A stretch of 64,000 nt of DNA from NCBI GenBank assembly GCA_018266575.1, contig JAFEAE010000016.1:62001-126000 (forward strand), written 5' to 3'. A program made the position numbers and the translations under genes. Below the pieces are notes generated by a model. It saw only the letters and a list, made by a program, of their open reading frames with translations. It was not told the origin of the DNA and did not search any database. Below, piece after piece: positions 4,573 to 63,053 of the stretch (positions are counted from its first letter, which is position 1; each line of letters starts with the position of its first letter). This DNA comes from Bacteroidota bacterium. Lineage in GTDB: Bacteria > Bacteroidota > Bacteroidia > Chitinophagales > Chitinophagaceae.

Positions 4573-5649
4573 ATGGGTTTTTTTTCAAAAGATACAAAGA
4601 CTGCATTTGAAGCAAAGGAAGCTGCACAATGGATTGCGTTTGGACCAGTGATTTTCCAGGTGGCAAAGGCATTGCGCAATTTCGGCATCCTGCAAATTAT
4701 TGAAGACAGTGGTGAAGCTGGAATAACACTCGAAGAGATCAGTGAAAAAACAAAACTCTCGCATTATGGTGTGCGTGTGTTACTGGAATCGGGATTGAGC
4801 ATGGGGCTTGTGGTGATCAATGACCATAAATATACGATTGCAAAAACCGGGCATTTTATTTTGCACGATCCATTAACGAAAGTGAATATGGATTTTGTAA
4901 ATGACATTTGTTACAAGGGGCTTTTTCATTTGGAAGAAAGCATCGAAACCGGTAAAGCTGCGGGCATGAAAGAACTCGGCAACTGGCAAACGATCTATGA
5001 AGGTGTTTCGAAACTACCGGAACAATTGCAGAAAAGCTGGTTCAATTTCGATCATTATTTTTCTGATGATGCATTTCCGAAAGTATTGCCACTTGTGTAC
5101 AAGCACAATATTAAAAACCTGCTCGACATTGGCGGTAACACAGGCAAATGGGCTTTTGCTTCTGTGAAATATGATCCTGAGGTACATGTCACAATTATGG
5201 ATTTGCCGGGTCCGATCAGTGTGGCGCAACAACGTGTGGAGCGTGAAGGTTTGCAAAACAGGATCGCCTTTCACCAGACAAATATCCTGAATGACAAAGA
5301 AGATTTTCCGAAGGGAAATGATGCGATCTGGATGAGCCAGTTCCTTGATTGTTTTTCGGAAGATGAGATCGTGATGATACTGAAAAAATGTTATGATGCC
5401 CTTGATGAAAACGGGACGGTTTTTATTCTTGAGCCTTTCTGGGACAGGCAGAAATTTGAAATAGCAGCATTTTGTTTACACCAGACTTCTATCTATTTTA
5501 CAGCGCTTGCCAATGGCAACAGCCAAATGTACAGTGCTGAAGTTTTTTTACCTTGTATTGATAAAGCAGGATTTGAAATTGTGGAACAGATTGATAATAT
5601 TGGTTTGAGCCAGACGCTGCTGAGATGTAGGAAAAGACGGGAAGTCTGA
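4573..5649 (+). CDS. SAM-dependent methyltransferase with N-terminal winged helix
   Basis: A 358-residue protein of the dimeric plant/CrtF-type O-methyltransferase architecture. It has an N-terminal winged-helix dimerisation domain (about 20-100) and a class I SAM fold with LLDIGGNTG at residues 183-191. Where these enzymes usually carry the catalytic LHDW, this one reads SQFLDCFSEDE, so the usual His base is missing. C-methylation of an aromatic ring, as found in flexirubins, is one possible explanation (inference). The last codons and the stop (5647-5649) lie in an inverted-repeat arm. Confidence 0.82.
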   Translation: MGFFSKDTKTAFEAKEAAQWIAFGPVIFQVAKALRNFGILQIIEDSGEAGITLEEISEKTKLSHYGVRVLLESGLSMGLVVINDHKYTIAKTGHFILHDPLTKVNMDFVNDICYKGLFHLEESIETGKAAGMKELGNWQTIYEGVSKLPEQLQKSWFNFDHYFSDDAFPKVLPLVYKHNIKNLLDIGGNTGKWAFASVKYDPEVHVTIMDLPGPISVAQQRVEREGLQNRIAFHQTNILNDKEDFPKGNDAIWMSQFLDCFSEDEIVMILKKCYDALDENGTVFILEPFWDRQKFEIAAFCLHQTSIYFTALANGNSQMYSAEVFLPCIDKAGFEIVEQIDNIGLSQTLLRCRKRREV

Positions 5650-5785
5650 AAGACCGGAAGTCGGGAAGATAGTTCGAGAATGTTATAGCGCTTGCATCAT
5701 TGAAACAGGTTGAAATATTTATTTGAAATTTTAAAATAAAAGTTTGCATCTTCCCGTCTTCCGGACTTTGCTGACTTGCAGACTA
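5642..5785. repeat. Paired-arm inverted repeat
   Basis: The left arm around 5648-5671 (GACCGGAAGTCGGGAAGAT) pairs with the right arm 5748-5772 (ATCTTCCCGTCTTCCGGAC) with two mismatches in about 22 bases. The methyltransferase stop lies at the left-arm edge. The spacer is about 80 bp. Confidence 0.78.
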
Positions 5786-12913: not shown

Positions 12914-13000
12914 TCTGACGTGAGAGGTGAAACGTGAGGCGTGAAAGATTTTGCATTGCTAACTTCTGACGTTTCACGTTTCACGTTTCACCTCTCCGCG
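12914..13000. repeat. Paired-arm inverted repeat between convergent genes
   Basis: The left arm (12914-12947) contains GAGAGGTGAAACGTGA and the right arm (12963-13000) contains TTTCACGTTTCACCTCTC. The words are GTGAAAC and GTTTCAC repeats. The antiporter's stop codon (12974-12976) and last eight codons are inside the right arm. Confidence 0.8.
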
Positions 13001-17247: not shown

Positions 17248-17277
17248 CGAATGAAGGTTGAGAGTTGACTGATGTTA

Positions 17278-17406
17278 GTTGACTGATGTTAGTTGACAGA
17301 TGACAGTCTTCATTTTCAAATTACATTTCTTATTTAATCTTCAAGCTTTGCAAAAACGAGAAATTTACATAAGAAGACTGTCATCTGTCAACTAACATCT
17401 GTCATC
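17278..17406. repeat. Paired-arm inverted repeat between divergent genes
   Basis: The 34-bp left arm (17278-17311) and right arm (17373-17406) are reverse complements with two mismatches. Shared words are GATGTTAGTTGACAGATGAC and its complement. An extra TTGACTGATGTTAG unit precedes the left arm. The element separates rsmA from pdxA, which diverge, so no gene ends here. Confidence 0.88.
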
Positions 17407-17449
17407 TTCTCTCTAAAATCCGTATTTTTATCCTTCCAAAAAACAGAAT

Positions 17450-46965: not shown

Positions 46966-47060
46966 GATCAACAAATTTCTGATTTTGAGATTTCTGATTT
47001 GTTGATTTCTGAATTTTTATACTTATTACAAATCAAAAATCTCAAGATCAGCAATCAGCA
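46966..47060. repeat. Paired-arm inverted repeat
   Basis: CTGATTTTGAGATTTCTGAT in the left arm (46966-47012) and ATCAAAAATCTCAAGATCAG in the right arm (47029-47060) are complements with two mismatches in 24. The unit TTTCTGATTT is repeated in the left arm. It lies between two minus-strand genes, next to a true terminator. Confidence 0.78.
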
Positions 47061-47924: not shown

Positions 47925-50900
47925 TTAAGCTTTTTTTGTAACAAACACTTTTAAAGAAACGTCATTTACTTCAATTTCAGTGCCATCAACGATTTCGGGT
48001 ACAATTTCCAGCTTATCTGCCAAAATTTCGGCGCAAATATAGTTATTAAATTGGGTTATGGACTCTTTTAGGGCGGCGGCTTCTGCTATTTTTACTAATA
48101 TCCTGTCTGTCAGATCGTAGCCGTTATCTTTTCTTATCTTTTGTATGCGGTTCACCAGTTCACGGGCATTACCTTCATTCACCAAGTCTGGGGTAATGGT
48201 GATATCCAGGGCGACTGTCAGCATGTCTTTATTCGCCACAATCCAACCCGGAATATCCTCACTGGATATTTCCACTTCATTAACCTGTAATATTAAGGGT
48301 TCGTTATCAATTAACAAAGTATAATGCCCTTCTTTTTCCAATTTCGATATATCTTCTTGCGAAAACGTTGCCAAAACAGCCGAAACAGCCTTCATTTTCG
48401 CCCCGAGCTTTTTACCTAAAGCCACAAAATTGGGTTTTATCTTTTTCTTGATAAACCCGTCAGTCTCGGTCAGGTATTGAATTTCCTTTACGTTCACTTC
48501 GGTTTTGATCAGGTCTTCCACTTTTTCCAGTTGCGTTTTCATGGAAGCATTTAACACGGGTATCAACACCTTGTGAAGCGGCTGGCGCACTTTTATATTT
48601 ACTTTTTTTCTTATTGATAAAATAAGAGATGATGCATCCTGCGCCAGTTGCATCCTTTCTTCCAAAGATTCGTCGATGGCTTTTGTATTTACCGCCGGAA
48701 AATCCGCATGATGAACAGATGCTACTTTTGTTTTGCCCGAAACCTCATTAAGATTAGAGAACAACCAGTCTGCAAAGAACGGTGACACCGGCGCCATTAA
48801 TAATGCAACGGTTTCCAGGCATTCATATAATGTTTGATATGCGCAGATTTTATCATGTTCGTATTCGCCTTTCCAGAAACGGCGGCGGCATAAACGGACA
48901 TACCAGTTGCTCAAGTGTTCATCAACAAAATCTTCTATTAACCTTCCTGCAATAGTAGGTTCGTAGTCATCAAAACTTTCCGTTACTTTTTTTATTAATG
49001 TATTTAATGAAGAAAGTATCCATTGATCTATTTCAGGACGTTCTGCCAATGGTATGTAATTTTCTTTGAAAGAAAATCCATCCACATTTGCATAGAGTGC
49101 AAAAAACTGGTAGGTGTTATATAGCGTGCCGAAAAATTTACGCTGCACTTCTTTGATGCCATCAATATCAAACTTCATGCTTTCCCAAGGGGATGCATTG
49201 GTGATGAGATACCAGCGTGTTGCATCAGCGCCATATTTATTAATGGTATCAAACGGGTCAACTACATTGCCAAGGCGCTTGCTCATTTTATTTCCGTTCT
49301 TATCCAACACCAAACCATTACTCACAACCGTTTTGAAAGCCCTGCCATCCACATTTTTTGTAGGTAGATTTGCTTTCTGCAATTCTTCAATTACACTTTC
49401 TTTTATTAATGAACCGATCGCATGCAAAGTATAAAACCATCCACGGGTCTGGTCAACACCTTCTGCAATAAAATCTGCCGGATAATTTTGTTCGAAGGTT
49501 TCGATATTCTCAAACGGGAAATGCCATTGCGCATAAGGCATTGCTCCGGAATCAAACCAAACGTCGATGAGATCGGGAACGCGTTTCATTGGTTTGCCTG
49601 ATGCGCTTACTAAAATAATTTCATCAACATAAGGTTTGTGTAAGTCTAAGCTCTGAGTCTTGAGCTTTGAGCTTTGAGCAAGATTTAGTTTTTGATCTGC
49701 CTTATTTATTTCAGATAATAATTCCTGGATAGAACCAATACAAATTTCTTCATTTTCATCTTCCGTTCTCCAGACAGGCAGCGGAGTTCCCCAGAAACGG
49801 CTGCGGCTTAAATTCCAGTCCACCATATTTTCCAACCAGTTTCCAAAGCGGCCTTCACCGGTTGATTTTGGTTTCCAGTTGACTGTTTTATTCAACTCAA
49901 CCATCCTGTCTTTTAGTGCAGTGGTTTTTATGAACCACGCATCAAGCGGATAATATAAAACCGGTTTGTCTGTACGCCAGCAATGCGGATAACTGTGTTC
50001 GTATTTTTCTATCTTGAATGCACGGTTTTCTTTTTTAAGTTTTACACAGATGTCAACATTCACATCTACATAAGCCGGATCATCTTTATAATTTTTTACA
50101 TAGCGGTTGCTGAACTCACCTAATCCATTTACAAACTTTCCTTGTTTGTCAACCATCGTTAAGATGCCGATATTATACTTCTTTCCAACTTTAAAATCGT
50201 CTGCACCAAATGCAGGGGCGGTGTGCACTATACCCGTTCCATCTTCAGTGGTAACAAAATCTCCCAATAATATTTTGAATGAATTGGGGTTATCCATTTT
50301 GTTTGCTTCGAATGGAAGCAATTGCTCGTAAGAAATTCCTTCAAGGTCGCTTCCTTTGAATTCAGCAAGAATTTTCCAGGGAAGAATTTTATTTCCTTCT
50401 TTATAATCATCAAAAGAAATATTCTCTTCCTCTTGTTTGAAATATTTTCCGAGCAATGCTTTTGCAAGAATGACATTAACAGGAAGATGTGTATATGGAT
50501 TAAAAGTTTTTACCAATACATAATCAATATTCGGCCCAACAGTCAAACCAAGGTTTGATGGCAATGTCCATGGTGTGGTCGTCCATGCAAGGAAAAAGGC
50601 CTCACCCCCCGCCCTCTCCAAAGGAGAGGGAGCTTTGGAACTCTCTAATAATTCAAATATTTTTCTAACAGTGTTGTTTGCTGTATTAGCCCCTCCTTCA
50701 GCGGGGTTGGGGAGGCGGAACATTACAGTCGCACTTGTGTCCTTCACATCTTTATAAGTTCCTGGCTGATTTAATTCATGCGAACTTAATCCTGTTCCTG
50801 CTGCAGGAGAATACGGCTGAATACTCACATCTTCATACAACAAACCTTTATTATAAAGTTGTTTCAATATCCACCATAATGTTTCGATGTAATTATTTTC

Positions 50901-51359
50901 AAATGTGATATATGGATTTTTCAGATCAACCCAATAACCCATTTTATTGGTGAGATTATCCCATTTGTCTTTGTAGCGCAAAACTGCCTCGCGGCATTTC
51001 TGATTATATTCTTCAACAGAAATTTTTTTGCCGATATCTTCTTTTGTTATCCCTAATTCTTTTTCAACGCCAAGCTCAACAGGCAAACCATGTGTATCCC
51101 AACCGCCTTTGCGTTTCACCTGGAAGCCACGCATGGTTTTGTAGCGGCAAACCAGGTCTTTCAATGTGCGTGAAATAACATGGTGGATACCTGGCATCCC
51201 GTTAGCACTCGGTGGGCCTTCATAAAACACAAATGGCGTTGCTCCTTCACGCAATTCAACACTTTGCTCAAATGCATGAATAGCCTCCCATTTTTCTAAA
51301 ATGTCTTTACTAATGAGAGGCAGATTCAGTTGCTGATATTCCCTGTATTTTACTGGCAT
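47925..51359 (-). CDS. ileS: Isoleucyl-tRNA synthetase
   Basis: A 1144-residue class Ia synthetase with the HIGH-type motif PSANGMPGIHH (50-60), the editing-domain entry WTTTPWTLPSN (259-269) and KMSKRLGN. Two variable loops look repeat-derived. Residues 215-254 are bounded by RLPNPAEGG and APSPLERAGGEA, encoded by the G-rich element at 50600-50722. Residues about 560-574 (AQSSKLKTQS) are encoded by AGCTCAA-type repeats. Both keep the frame. It precedes the dksA-like gene by 4 bp and has its own -7 box. Confidence 0.97.
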   Translation of the reverse strand: MPVKYREYQQLNLPLISKDILEKWEAIHAFEQSVELREGATPFVFYEGPPSANGMPGIHHVISRTLKDLVCRYKTMRGFQVKRKGGWDTHGLPVELGVEKELGITKEDIGKKISVEEYNQKCREAVLRYKDKWDNLTNKMGYWVDLKNPYITFENNYIETLWWILKQLYNKGLLYEDVSIQPYSPAAGTGLSSHELNQPGTYKDVKDTSATVMFRLPNPAEGGANTANNTVRKIFELLESSKAPSPLERAGGEAFFLAWTTTPWTLPSNLGLTVGPNIDYVLVKTFNPYTHLPVNVILAKALLGKYFKQEEENISFDDYKEGNKILPWKILAEFKGSDLEGISYEQLLPFEANKMDNPNSFKILLGDFVTTEDGTGIVHTAPAFGADDFKVGKKYNIGILTMVDKQGKFVNGLGEFSNRYVKNYKDDPAYVDVNVDICVKLKKENRAFKIEKYEHSYPHCWRTDKPVLYYPLDAWFIKTTALKDRMVELNKTVNWKPKSTGEGRFGNWLENMVDWNLSRSRFWGTPLPVWRTEDENEEICIGSIQELLSEINKADQKLNLAQSSKLKTQSLDLHKPYVDEIILVSASGKPMKRVPDLIDVWFDSGAMPYAQWHFPFENIETFEQNYPADFIAEGVDQTRGWFYTLHAIGSLIKESVIEELQKANLPTKNVDGRAFKTVVSNGLVLDKNGNKMSKRLGNVVDPFDTINKYGADATRWYLITNASPWESMKFDIDGIKEVQRKFFGTLYNTYQFFALYANVDGFSFKENYIPLAERPEIDQWILSSLNTLIKKVTESFDDYEPTIAGRLIEDFVDEHLSNWYVRLCRRRFWKGEYEHDKICAYQTLYECLETVALLMAPVSPFFADWLFSNLNEVSGKTKVASVHHADFPAVNTKAIDESLEERMQLAQDASSLILSIRKKVNIKVRQPLHKVLIPVLNASMKTQLEKVEDLIKTEVNVKEIQYLTETDGFIKKKIKPNFVALGKKLGAKMKAVSAVLATFSQEDISKLEKEGHYTLLIDNEPLILQVNEVEISSEDIPGWIVANKDMLTVALDITITPDLVNEGNARELVNRIQKIRKDNGYDLTDRILVKIAEAAALKESITQFNNYICAEILADKLEIVPEIVDGTEIEVNDVSLKVFVTKKA
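49640..49682 (-). repeat. AGCTCAA-type repeat inside ileS
   Basis: On the coding strand GCTCAAAGCTCAAAGCTCAA and then GACTCAGAGCTTAGAC form near-tandem 7-bp words, translated as AQSSKLKTQSLD. The stretch lies just before the conserved HKPYVDEIIL block and has the look of one intergenic repeat arm. Confidence 0.6.
50600..50722 (-). repeat. Paired G-rich element in frame inside ileS
   Basis: On the coding strand one arm reads CCTCCCCAACCCCGCTGAAG and GAGGGGCT; the other reads AGCTCCCTCTCC, TTT, GGAGAGGGC and a G-rich tail. The two arms align as rough reverse complements around native-looking codons (NNTVRKIFELLESS). The second arm is the same element as at 27578-27610. Confidence 0.78.
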
Positions 51360-52035: not shown

Positions 52036-52171
52036 GGATGATCGTTGGCCGATTATCGATGATCGACTCCTCTTTAAATTTTCGTGTTTTTTCTCATTAA
52101 TTTTTAAAAAAGTAAAAACAAGAAGATTGATTATAAGCCGATCATCGATCAACAATCATCGATCATCGCTG
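52036..52171. repeat. Paired-arm inverted repeat, GATCGATGATC words
   Basis: The left arm (52036-52069) contains TTATCGATGATCGACT and the right arm (52133-52171) GCCGATCATCGATCAACAAT. The hemJ stop codon (52156-52158) and last codons are in the right arm. Confidence 0.75.
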
Positions 52172-55285: not shown

Positions 55286-55287
55286 CT

Positions 55288-55382
55288 TTGTGAGTAGTGA
55301 GTGGTCAGTAGTGAGTAGTAAGTGTTTCAAAAAAATGTCATTTCACCAGCGTATTACTCACTACTGACTACTCACAATTCAC
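55288..55382. repeat. Paired-arm inverted repeat between hemA and hemC
   Basis: The left arm (55288-55324) has GTGAGTGGTCAGTAGTGAGT and the right arm (55351-55382) ACTCACTACTGACTACTCAC, complements with two mismatches in 24. The words are GAGTAGT/GTCAGTA. It interrupts an operon without a terminator-like T-run. Confidence 0.85.
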
Positions 55383-55389
55383 TAAAACA

Positions 55390-56337
55390 ATGAACAACCT
55401 GCTTAAAATAGGCACACGCGAAAGTCAGCTCGCTGTTTGGCAAGCTACGTTGGTAAAAGATTTACTGCAACAACATGGAGTGCAAAGCGAATTGGTATTC
55501 ATAAAAAGTGAAGGGGATATTGATTTGAAAACACCATTGTATGAAATGGGCGTTCAGGGTATTTTCACAAAAACATTGGATGCCGCATTATTAAACAACC
55601 GGATCAATATTGCTGTGCATTCAATGAAAGATGTACCTACGCAATTAGCAAACGGGATTTCACAGGCTGCAGTTCTGAAAAGAGGAAATTATAAAGATAT
55701 TCTTGTGGTCAATCGTCAATGGTCAACGGTCAATGAACTATTAAGCTCACCATTTACCACTCACCATTCACCACTCACGGTTGCCACTTCCAGCATCCGC
55801 CGTAAATCCCAATGGCTGCACAGATATCCGCAGCATCAAATACAAAATCTTCGCGGCAATGTGAATACGAGGCTGCAAAAATTAGAAACAGAAAATTGGG
55901 ATGCAGCAATTTTTGCAGCAGCAGGTTTGGAAAGAATAAACCTTCGCCCGGAAAATTCTATTGAGCTGGATTGGATGTTACCGGCGCCTTCACAAGGCGC
56001 AATAATGGTTGTTTGCAGGGATGAAGATAATGATGCAAAAGAAAAATGTGCATTGCTACATGATGAATCAACTGCATTATGTACAAAAATTGAACGTGAT
56101 TTTTTACGGACATTACTTGGCGGATGTTCAACGCCAATAAGCGCTTTGGCAGAAATTGAAGAAGGTGAATTGTTTTTCCGTGGCAATATTTTATCGCTCG
56201 ATGGAAAGCAGAAACAGGAAATAGAAAAAATATTGCCTGTTGACCTGGCAACAAATATTGGTAAAGAAGCTGCGGTTGAATTATTGCAAAACGGCGGACA
56301 GGAAATAGCAGACAGCATTCGTAATGCATCAAAATAA
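55390..56337 (+). CDS. hemC: Porphobilinogen deaminase (hydroxymethylbilane synthase)
   Basis: A 315-residue HemC. HSMKDVPT holds the catalytic Asp81, VATSSIRRKSQ the substrate-binding Arg residues and LGGCSTPIS the cofactor-bearing Cys246. It joins four porphobilinogens into hydroxymethylbilane. Between VNR (109) and VATSS (131) it carries about 9 residues more than E. coli HemC; that loop (with SPFTTHHSPLT) is encoded by an inverted repeat like those between genes. It overlaps hemD by 14 bp. Confidence 0.96.
   Translation: MNNLLKIGTRESQLAVWQATLVKDLLQQHGVQSELVFIKSEGDIDLKTPLYEMGVQGIFTKTLDAALLNNRINIAVHSMKDVPTQLANGISQAAVLKRGNYKDILVVNRQWSTVNELLSSPFTTHHSPLTVATSSIRRKSQWLHRYPQHQIQNLRGNVNTRLQKLETENWDAAIFAAAGLERINLRPENSIELDWMLPAPSQGAIMVVCRDEDNDAKEKCALLHDESTALCTKIERDFLRTLLGGCSTPISALAEIEEGELFFRGNILSLDGKQKQEIEKILPVDLATNIGKEAAVELLQNGGQEIADSIRNASK
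55707..55780 (+). repeat. Paired-arm inverted repeat in frame inside hemC
   Basis: The left arm (55707-55735) is made of GGTCAAT-like words and the right arm (55746-55780) of CACCATT/CACTCAC words. Aligned as reverse complements they match 20 of 28 bases. The words recur at 9160-9185 and 57031-57055. Length and frame keep hemC open. Confidence 0.8.
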
Positions 56338-57043
56338 ATTCACGATATTATCCACACGGCCATTACCGGAAATGCTTCTGCAAAAAGCCGCAGAGAAAAA
56401 TATATTGATAGATGTGGTTCCTTTCATTGAAACAGAACCGGTAATTAATGAAGAGTTGAAAAGAAGTATCACTTCATTAACCAATCAGGATTTAACGGTT
56501 GTATTCACCAGCATGAATGCCGTTGATGCTGTTGGAAAATATTTGAATGGCATTAAGCCAAACTGGAGAATATTCTGCATAGGTTCAGCTACAAAAAAAT
56601 TTGTTACAAGCTTTTTTGATGAAAAGAATATTTCAGGGATTGCTGATGCCGCAAGTACTTTGGCTGATTTAATCATTGATCAAAAAAATATATCTTTCGT
56701 TGTATTTTTTTGCGGAGATAAAAGAAGAGATGAATTACCGGGGAAATTAAGGCAGCATAATATTGAGGTTAAAGAAATTGAGGTCTATAAAACTTTTGAA
56801 ACTGCGCATCAAATTAAGAGATCGTATGATGCCATTTTATTTTATAGCCCAAGCGCAGTAAACAGTTTTTTTTCAGTGAACAAGACTGATAACAAAACAA
56901 TATTATTCGCAATCGGAAAAACTACTGCAAGTGAAATAAAAAGATTCGGCAACAATAAAATAATAATTGCCGACGAACCATCGAAAGAACTACTGGCAGA
57001 GCAGGCAATAAACTATTTTCAAACATACTTAACTCACCATTGA
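56324..57043 (+). CDS. hemD: Uroporphyrinogen-III synthase
   Basis: A 239-residue two-lobed protein. Family identity is low, as usual, but VVFTSMNAVDAVGKYL, FFCGDKRRDELPGKLR and FYSPSAVNSFFSV match HemD blocks, and it stands between hemC and hemE. It closes hydroxymethylbilane with ring D inversion. The C-terminal TYLTHH and stop are encoded by a repeat arm. Confidence 0.92.
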   Translation: MHQNKFTILSTRPLPEMLLQKAAEKNILIDVVPFIETEPVINEELKRSITSLTNQDLTVVFTSMNAVDAVGKYLNGIKPNWRIFCIGSATKKFVTSFFDEKNISGIADAASTLADLIIDQKNISFVVFFCGDKRRDELPGKLRQHNIEVKEIEVYKTFETAHQIKRSYDAILFYSPSAVNSFFSVNKTDNKTILFAIGKTTASEIKRFGNNKIIIADEPSKELLAEQAINYFQTYLTHH

Positions 57044-57055
57044 CCACTCACAACC
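57031..57055 (+). repeat. Single repeat arm at the hemD/hemE junction
   Basis: ACTCACCATTGACCACTCAC has the same words as the hemC element, but no partner arm was found nearby. It contains the hemD stop (57041-57043) and ends just before the hemE ATG. Confidence 0.6.
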
Positions 57056-60186: not shown

Positions 60187-60246
60187 ACCACATAGGCACA
60201 GAGAAACATAGATCATCATTACTATGTGCCTATCTCTCTATGTGGT
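60187..60246. repeat. Paired-arm inverted repeat, ACCACATAG type
   Basis: ACCACATAGGCACAGAGAAA (from 60187) faces CTATCTCTCTATGTGGT (to 60246), with CATAG/CTATG closing the inner part. It resembles the element at 4153-4236. It lies before the true hemL start. Confidence 0.78.
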
Positions 60247-60270: not shown

Positions 60271-61557
60271 ATGATAGAAAAAAGCAAACATCTTTTCGAG
60301 CGAGCGCAACAATCAATTCCTGGCGGTGTTAACTCACCCGTAAGAGCATTTAAAAGTGTAGGTGGGACTCCGTTATTTATTAAAAAAGCTAAGGGAGCTT
60401 ATCTGTACGATGCGGATGATAATAGATATATCGATTACATCGCATCATGGGGGCCGATGATCTTAGGCCACGCACATGATGAAGTGGTAAAAGCAATACA
60501 GGAGCAAGCGCTCAGTTCAACATCTTACGGCGCTCCCACTGAATTGGAAATTGAAATGGCTGAACTCATCATTAGCATGGTTCCAAATGTTGATTTAATA
60601 AGAATGGTGAGCAGCGGAACAGAAGCCTGCATGAGTGCAATTCGTTTAGCACGAGGCTACACAGGAAAAAATAAAATCATCAAGTTTGAAGGGTGTTATC
60701 ATGGCCATGCCGATTCATTTTTAGTAAAAGCAGGAAGCGGGGTTGCTACATTAAATATTCAAACAGTTCCCGGAGTTACTGCAGGAGTTGCAAATGATAC
60801 GCTCACTTGCGCATACAATGATCTCGCTGCTGTTGAGCAATTGGTTGAAGAAAATAAAAATCAAATTGCTGCAATCATTGTTGAACCTGTTGCGGGAAAT
60901 ATGGGTTGCATTTTACCGCAACCAGGATTTTTGGAAGGCCTGCGAAGAATCTGCGATAAAGAAAATATCGTTTTCATTTTTGATGAAGTGATGACAGGTT
61001 TTCGTTTGGCACCCGGTGGCGCCCAGGAAAAATTACATGTAAATGCCGATCTTGTTACCTACGGAAAAGTGATCGGTGGCGGAATGCCTGTTGGTGCATT
61101 CGGTGGAAAAAAAGAGATCATGCAGCATATCGCACCACTCGGAAATGTGTACCAGGCAGGAACATTAAGTGGGAATCCGATCGCGATGATCGCAGGTTAC
61201 ACCACGTTGAAAATTTTAAAAGATCATCCGCATATTTATCATGAGCTTGAAGAAAAAACAATTTATCTCCGCGATAACCTGCACAGAGTTTTTCTTGAAA
61301 CAAAAATTCCATTTGTGATCAACCAATTTGGTTCAATGATCAGTGTACATTTCAGTAATCATGCAGTTAATGATTTCGGAAGCGCTGCATCAGCTAATAA
61401 TGAATTGTTCAAAAAGTATTTTCATGCGATGCTGCAGCGAGGAATTTATTTACCCCCTTCCGCCTTTGAAAGCTGGTTCCTCAATAATGTGTTGACAAAG
61501 GAAGATCTGGATAATACGATTGAAGCTACAAGGGAAAGTTTGTCGGAAATATTATAA
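60271..61557 (+). CDS. hemL: Glutamate-1-semialdehyde 2,1-aminomutase
   Basis: A 428-residue PLP enzyme. [20 protein letters not shown] is the family N-terminus; [15 protein letters not shown] holds the PLP lysine. It converts glutamate-1-semialdehyde to aminolevulinate, completing the C5 route begun by HemA. ATG 60271 is chosen over the ATG at 60226, because the latter's extra 15 codons begin inside an inverted repeat and lack family similarity. Confidence 0.96.
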
Positions 61558-61662
61558 TCGTGAAACGTTAAAGGTGAACCGTGAGTTGTTCAGACATTTT
61601 TTCTTACGTTTATCGTTTCCCGATTTCATATTTCACTTTTGTCGTTTCATGTTTCACGATTA
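61557..61662. repeat. Paired-arm inverted repeat after hemL
   Basis: The left arm starts at 61557 (ATCGTGAAACGTTAAAGGTG) and the right arm ends at 61662 (CATGTTTCACGATTA). ATCGTGAAAC is perfectly matched; the rest is imperfect. The words are GTGAAAC, as at 12914-13000. Confidence 0.72.
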
Positions 61663-62950: not shown

Positions 62951-62974
62951 AGTTACTGAAGTTGGTATTATACA

Positions 62975-63053
62975 AGTATGAACTATGAACTATAAGTTAT
63001 GAAGTATGAACTTAATGAGTAGAAATAATTCATAACTCATAGTTCATACTTTT
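62975..63053. repeat. Paired-arm inverted repeat, AGTTCAT words
   Basis: The left arm (62975-63011) has AAGTATGAACTATGAAC and TATAAGTTATGAAG. The right arm (63030-63053) has TTCATAACTCATAGTTCATA. The AGTTCAT word is the unit of the tandem repeat at 41114-41141. It ends at the nth stop codon. Confidence 0.8.

Follow-up and report, generated by a model that had tools for sequence, protein, structure and literature searches.

In-frame arrays of opposed seven-nucleotide words in a loop of hydroxymethylbilane synthase in the Chitinophagaceae

How does a two-armed DNA repeat come to lie within the intact reading frame of a conserved enzyme, and what becomes of the enzyme that carries it? The question is raised by hemC in a genome of the Chitinophagaceae, where, within the 64,000-nucleotide stretch analysed here (the window), an open frame at 55390–56337 on the forward strand encodes a hydroxymethylbilane synthase (porphobilinogen deaminase) of 315 residues, assigned from the list of open reading frames, Pfam domains PF01379 and PF03900, homologues in the PDB and the match of its predicted fold to E. 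coli HemC (1pda/1ah5; TM 0.85–0.91). Positions 55705–55780 of this intact frame read GTGGTCAATCGTCAATGGTCAACGGTCAATGAACTATTAAGCTCACCATTTACCACTCACCATTCACCACTCACGG. The left arm (55707–55734, forward strand), delimited from the sequence, the period-7 segment and the stop-phase count, comprises four GGTCAAT-type 7-mers, GGTCAAT CGTCAAT GGTCAAC GGTCAAT, which carry TCA and no stop and reach back to about 55705. An 11-nt spacer, GAACTATTAAG (55735–55745, forward, from the sequence), leads to the right arm, CTCACCATTTACCACTCACCATTCACCACTCACGG (55746–55780, forward; sequence, inverted-repeat listing and period-7 segment), whose CACCATT/CACCACT words run in the opposite sense and terminate at the Val codon preceding ATSSIRRK. 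The loop so lengthened, defined from family alignments and an AlphaFold2 model, occupies codons 107–130 (55708–55779, forward), with 24 residues, VNRQWSTVNELLSSPFTTHHSPLT, between a strand ending in DILV and the conserved ATSSIRRK strand. An initial annotation had put it at about nine residues longer than in E. coli HemC, and alignment bears this out at 8–9 residues, with gaps of 1 and 8 residues in the E. coli protein.

The AlphaFold2 model, built from 58 sequences, has a mean pLDDT of 87.8 and shows a strand at residues 103–107, a short helix at 111–119 (the left arm) and a low-confidence stretch at 121–130 (the right arm); the HemC fold is thus predicted to be intact despite the loop, and enzyme activity, judged from conservation, is presumably retained in full. 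The claim of a complete paired-arm element fared less evenly. Two opposed arms are present, but in the window copy they hardly pair, its RNA fold (z = −1.0) being no better than those of many shuffles, because the left arm is built of TCA-type words and the right of TCACC-type words; strong folding is seen in three hemC-loop copies from other species (z = −4.4 to −7.1). By eye, no obvious target-site duplication borders 55705–55780. The words themselves are shared with elements outside hemC, as had been proposed, with nine matches in the genome at E ≤ 1e-3, the hemC copy included.

Elements of the same architecture are plentiful in the surrounding DNA. The interval between hemA and hemC holds a hairpin of the same class, GTGAGTAGTGAGTGGTCAG.../...CTGACTACTCACAATTCAC (55287–55385, unstranded), recognised as an inverted repeat with a fold z of −9.7; sub-threshold Rfam matches of this intergenic hairpin to microRNA hairpins were taken as chance look-alikes, and a known RNA family was rejected. 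Downstream, the repeat family and the list of open frames place right-arm words, CTCACCATTGACCACTCAC (57026–57051, forward), at the 3' end of hemD (frame 56324–57043) and just beyond it, where they encode the C-terminal ...YLTHH of HemD; this suggests that an element may have supplied the stop region of that gene. At least eight more hairpins lie in the window (5649–5769, 12917–12996, 17263–17407, 46975–47055, 52037–52167, 60187–60246, 61555–61662 and 62974–63051), apparently mostly intergenic, and the further hairpins have words of their own (AGTTGACTGATGTT, GAACTAT, ACGTGAA, GATCGATG, CGGAAGTC and others). Many vocabularies of one architecture therefore coexist in a single genome.

Whether the pattern belongs to the DNA or to the peptide can be decided by recoding. 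In 300 rewritings of the window loop, synonymous codons were drawn according to family usage: the real loop's period-7 score of 14.0 compared with a mean of 3.8 in the recodings and was reached in none of them (p ≤ 0.003), and its inverted-arm score of 11.0 compared with a mean of 6.8 (p = 0.007). Because synonymous recoding loses both scores, the array is neither chance nor codon use, and the initial annotation was right that a real two-arm repeat lies in frame in the hemC loop; the codon-use explanation, which it had itself entertained, is excluded. Across 53 long HemC loops the only raised lags were 7, 14 and 21, and 200 kb of the same genome gave 25 period-7 segments scoring at least 10, against none in Markov-3 sequence modelled on it. 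Period-8 arrays were raised too (11 segments, against none for period 6, at positions 1–200000 of contig C8 of the same genome), and may form a related class built of 8-nt words.

Translation has left its own mark on the arms. The G-rich arm often has TGA within its word, and the in-frame position falls on every third word; at that position the hemC loops have TCA 22 times and TGA never, whereas TGA outnumbers TCA 57 to 24 in the remaining two phases, close to the 11:5 ratio of TGA to TCA in the intergenic elements of the window genome. An open frame demands the absence of in-frame TGA, so what is informative is that the array carries on there with TCA. The loops are therefore translated, and their words filtered exactly where translation would stop.

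To what extent this is a peculiarity of one gene was addressed with 90 distinct hemC genes, nearly all from Chitinophagaceae, chosen largely by similarity to the window protein and in several cases taken from metagenome bins. Taking a score of at least 10 at lag 7 as an array, 33 of the 90 loops have one, a frequency that this choice of genes biases and may inflate for similar loops. Genes without an array have either an ordinary loop or a long loop with no visible words (22/90); overall, many relatives have 15–17 residues here and others up to 41. The arrays are confined to this loop to a striking degree: a scan along whole hemC genes returned 44 period-7 segments, 43 of them in the loop and one elsewhere, and in hemC neighbourhoods 26 lay in the loop, 20 outside long frames and 2 in other long frames, one of which actually sits just upstream of a hemC start. 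Vocabularies differ between loci, with GGTCAAT/CACCATT in L062 and L067, AGTCGAAAG/CTTTCGACT in L110, CGTGAAT/CACGACT in L065, GTGAGTGG/CACGACTCACG in L106, GTGAGT/ACTCACTAC in L103, ATTCGAA in L115, CAATCGT/CACGATT in L104 and ATGAGTGATGAG/CATCACTCATC in L094, and a single fixed family sequence is accordingly rejected. The encoded peptides likewise vary widely in alignment, which excludes a conserved loop peptide, the other outcome against which the initial annotation had asked to be checked. What does hold is its view of an in-frame repeat in the loop of a conserved enzyme outside the Rickettsiales, with a fold predicted to be intact and many relatives without the array. In-frame REP-like palindromes also occur in this loop, instead of or besides arrays, in L043, L044, L080, L089 and L116: CCCGATAGCTATCGGGA in L080 and L116, which belong to two genera, CCCCCTTTAGGGG in L043, a GC-rich palindrome in L089 and, within the same set, ATCCCGAATGAATCGGGA.

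Relationships among these loops suggest that arrays have arrived, or been replaced, more than once. A HemC tree computed without the loop residues requires 16 changes of the heptamer label, at least seven of them forced by strongly supported branches. L103 and L110, of the same genus and with about 80% nucleotide identity, have unrelated loop words, and those of L110 have 66 matches in its own genome (G254) and none in nine other genomes, that of its congener L103 (G103) included. The L062 words have 14 matches in G279, and words of this type are common in G279, G000, G415, G373 and G220, whose loops use the same or related words, and rare or absent in the other genomes searched. Over 17 loci, loop words share more 7-mers with same-locus arrays (0.248) than with those of other loci (0.176; permutation p = 0.016). 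The loop words of G103 and G234 have no other match in their own genomes at E ≤ 1e-3, so that a recent origin from a resident family does not hold for every copy. Replacement is seen most directly in the sister loci L094 and L097, which are 93–94% identical over about 3.6 kb with the alignment broken at the loop, where the L094 words named above stand against GGTGAATGGTCAATGGTCAGTGG in L097, and at one other place, about 1.3 kb away, which holds an intergenic hairpin of L094 with words like those of the L094 loop. A recombination tract from a congener was considered as the source of the L094 loop and rejected, flank identities giving no sign of one.

The window copy itself appears not to be young. 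Its genome falls in a well-supported clade of five (L009, L010, L011, L012 and L014), all with 21–26 residues at the loop, so that the long loop is common to its nearest relatives and cannot be regarded as new in this genome; absence from close relatives, for which the initial annotation had proposed to look, holds for the many relatives with ordinary loops and fails in this nearest clade. Words are still visible there only in the window genome and in L010 (CACCATTCACCATTCACT), and the window copy may be either an old insert that has retained its words or a later overwrite.

Taken together, we consider it probable that a heptamer element, mobile or copied, has repeatedly inserted itself into, or been written over, a permissive loop of HemC, and that selection keeps the outcomes that are stop-free and in frame. 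Positions 55705–55780 would then hold in frame a copy, or what remains of one, belonging to a class of very small elements dispersed, mostly between genes, in the Chitinophagaceae; their design is two opposed runs of some three to five imperfect 7-nt words flanking a short spacer. The HemC loop would tolerate changes in length, and elements would have entered or overwritten it time and again, often with the words current in the host genome; selection would purge insertions that break the frame or bring an in-frame stop, leaving G-rich arms with TCA where TGA would stop, and after arrival the words would decay and native loop residues be lost. Insertion, templated copying or recombination may each be the means of arrival; no transposase, target-site duplication or exact-element-length empty site was found at the loci examined. 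Most likely, the element is a genomic parasite or by-product that the host tolerates, is presumably neutral, and remodels protein loops in the manner of Rickettsia palindromic elements.

The most serious rival is a single ancient insertion into the HemC loop of the Chitinophagaceae ancestor, whose vocabulary has since changed where it stands, with no new insertions, through slippage, gene conversion or recombination with other copies. Such a history would account for arms that occupy the same place in most lineages and end just before I/V-ATSS, for the many lineages that keep long loops without visible words, and for the kinship, among members of one genus, of the left parts of some loops (LKNEL.V...LG in L072, L073, L094 and L098), but ordinary short loops are scattered among the long-loop lineages, the close relatives L094/L097 and L103/L110 have loop words that are unrelated within each pair, the L094 flanks giving no hint of a recombination tract, and the ileS and 6-phosphogluconolactonase loops described below are scattered likewise; we regard it as unlikely. 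Retention of a hairpin in the hemC mRNA or DNA as a regulator of expression is more doubtful still: the strong folding of coding copies in other species and the intergenic hairpin upstream of hemC in the window would suit it, but the window copy does not fold so, most relatives have no element, several loops (L074, L075, L121) keep only one arm, and Rfam gives no meaningful match. That the words arise from a conserved loop peptide (for example ...HHSPLT) and codon preference with no DNA element can be set aside as very improbable, for whilst the I/V-ATSS strand is commonly preceded by T and peptides like HHSPLT/HHSPFT turn up repeatedly, the signal is lost on synonymous recoding, the unrelated peptides SRKSKVESREMDDLQLSTFDSQLV and VKRESSIVNRELTKFEDIVTTHGSRLT bear equally strong arrays of other words, only lags of 7, 14 and 21 are raised, and the same words are found between genes.

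Repeated entry into the HemC loop, the reading we prefer, also has counterparts in other genes. Genome-wide rates were taken from samples, 464 kb of the window genome and 200 kb each of G220 and G341. The first of these, of which some 85% is coding by a simple gene call, contains 30 elements with a period-7 score of at least 12, of which 21 lie between genes, 5 at the ends of genes and 4 within three genes, namely hemC, ileS and an RsmB/F-like methyltransferase with two in-frame arrays (G000:C15:88528-89688, L165). The ileS array, the second in-frame array of the window, was delimited by period-7 scan, orthologues and Pfam and lies on the reverse strand at 49654–49679 (gene 47925–51359, reverse), reading GCTCAAAGCTCAAAGCTCAAGACTCA and encoding a loop ...NLAQSSKLKTQSLDLHK...; with the window gene counted, 7 of 30 orthologues have arrays in the same loop (6/29 others), and their words differ (CGTCGACC, CTGTCATC, AGCTCAA, ACATTCA). 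The first repeat search brought up two further cases outside the 464-kb count, in-frame heptamer arrays in a 6-phosphogluconolactonase (G000:C26:37203-37943, L206), where 3 of 30 orthologues have loop arrays, and in an S13 D-Ala-D-Ala carboxypeptidase (L008, 721–2049). In G220, which belongs to another genus, in-frame arrays were seen on contig C1 in genes named by eye from sequence motifs as dehydrogenase/transketolase-like (71997–72042) and HisRS-like (188134–188165). HemC is thus the strongest array site found, and others exist; the phenomenon is broader than the initial annotation proposed, with the same loop affected in many lineages through different vocabularies and other enzymes affected besides. 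A bolder generalisation, which we offer tentatively, is that the element class is defined by a rule (opposed arms of 7-nt words) and not by sequence, its words turning over between species, and that a copying or templated-synthesis activity would insert it in the loops of core enzymes (HemC, IleRS, 6-phosphogluconolactonase, HisRS-like) or overwrite them with it, remodelling these proteins in frame and at preferred sites.

Comparison with known systems helps to place these elements. Like REP/BIME palindromes they are short, dispersed and mostly found between genes; REPs are not known to be composed of 7-nt words. Mobilisation by a Y1/RAYT transposase was considered and rejected, the best Y1 locus (L171) having no period-7 array alongside it; the arrays at L172, of mixed words, are separated from the gene by several hundred bases at the least. 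Rickettsia palindromic elements are about 150 bp long, have a sequence particular to each family and encode a conserved peptide (PMC10969869), and they and the elements of Wolbachia are small palindromes lying in frame in unrelated conserved genes whose function is apparently kept, in several families and patchily distributed between relatives (PMC10969869; PMC6649704, citing Ogata 2000, 2002 and Claverie and Ogata 2003). The resemblance drawn by the initial annotation holds for in-frame insertion into a conserved gene and absence from many orthologues. Against ~100–150 bp and a family sequence common to loci and species, the HemC elements measure ~60–75 nt and have words that vary with the genome, they encode no conserved peptide, and they strike one loop again and again across the family. 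The hemC arrays work like Rickettsia palindromic elements, yet are no members of that family. The literature on 7-nt repeats is the nearest description of their DNA, covering TAACTGA of Beggiatoaceae, cyanobacteria and some Bacteroidetes, the STRRs of cyanobacteria, and GGGAATC of Xanthomonas and Nostoc (MacGregor 2015, PMC4679880; Rehm 2015, PMC4692102). Those are direct arrays of a single near-fixed word, mostly intergenic with a few inside open frames, one orientation having stops in all frames (PMC4679880; PMC4692102); MacGregor (2015) reports just one indirect repeat in the genome studied there, with the copies inside genes lying mainly at the ends of the proteins (PMC4679880). The tandem 7-nt period and mostly intergenic placement are shared with the present arrays, whose arms, in contrast, are opposed, whose words vary between and within genomes, and which occupy internal loops of core enzymes. 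Coding inverted repeats in mitochondrial genes of Nematomorpha, perfect, up to 284 bp and gained or lost between species, are similar as inverted repeats in protein genes and differ in that a 7-nt period is not described for them in the available part of that account (PMC6649704).

Searches of the open-access literature found no report of the phenomenon in Bacteroidota, nor of opposed heptamer arms, vocabulary turnover or one enzyme loop struck across a family. To our knowledge, the in-frame spread of repeat elements through protein-coding genes is known almost only from Rickettsiales. The present arrays draw attention to a class of period-7 hairpin elements with no known enzyme, and in the Chitinophagaceae, a family that is free-living and well represented by sequences, the process is seen again and again at one defined loop of HemC, an essential enzyme of heme synthesis. 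Because that loop is defined and recurrent, and sister species differ there, it becomes possible to measure how fast, in which direction and at what cost repeats remodel proteins.
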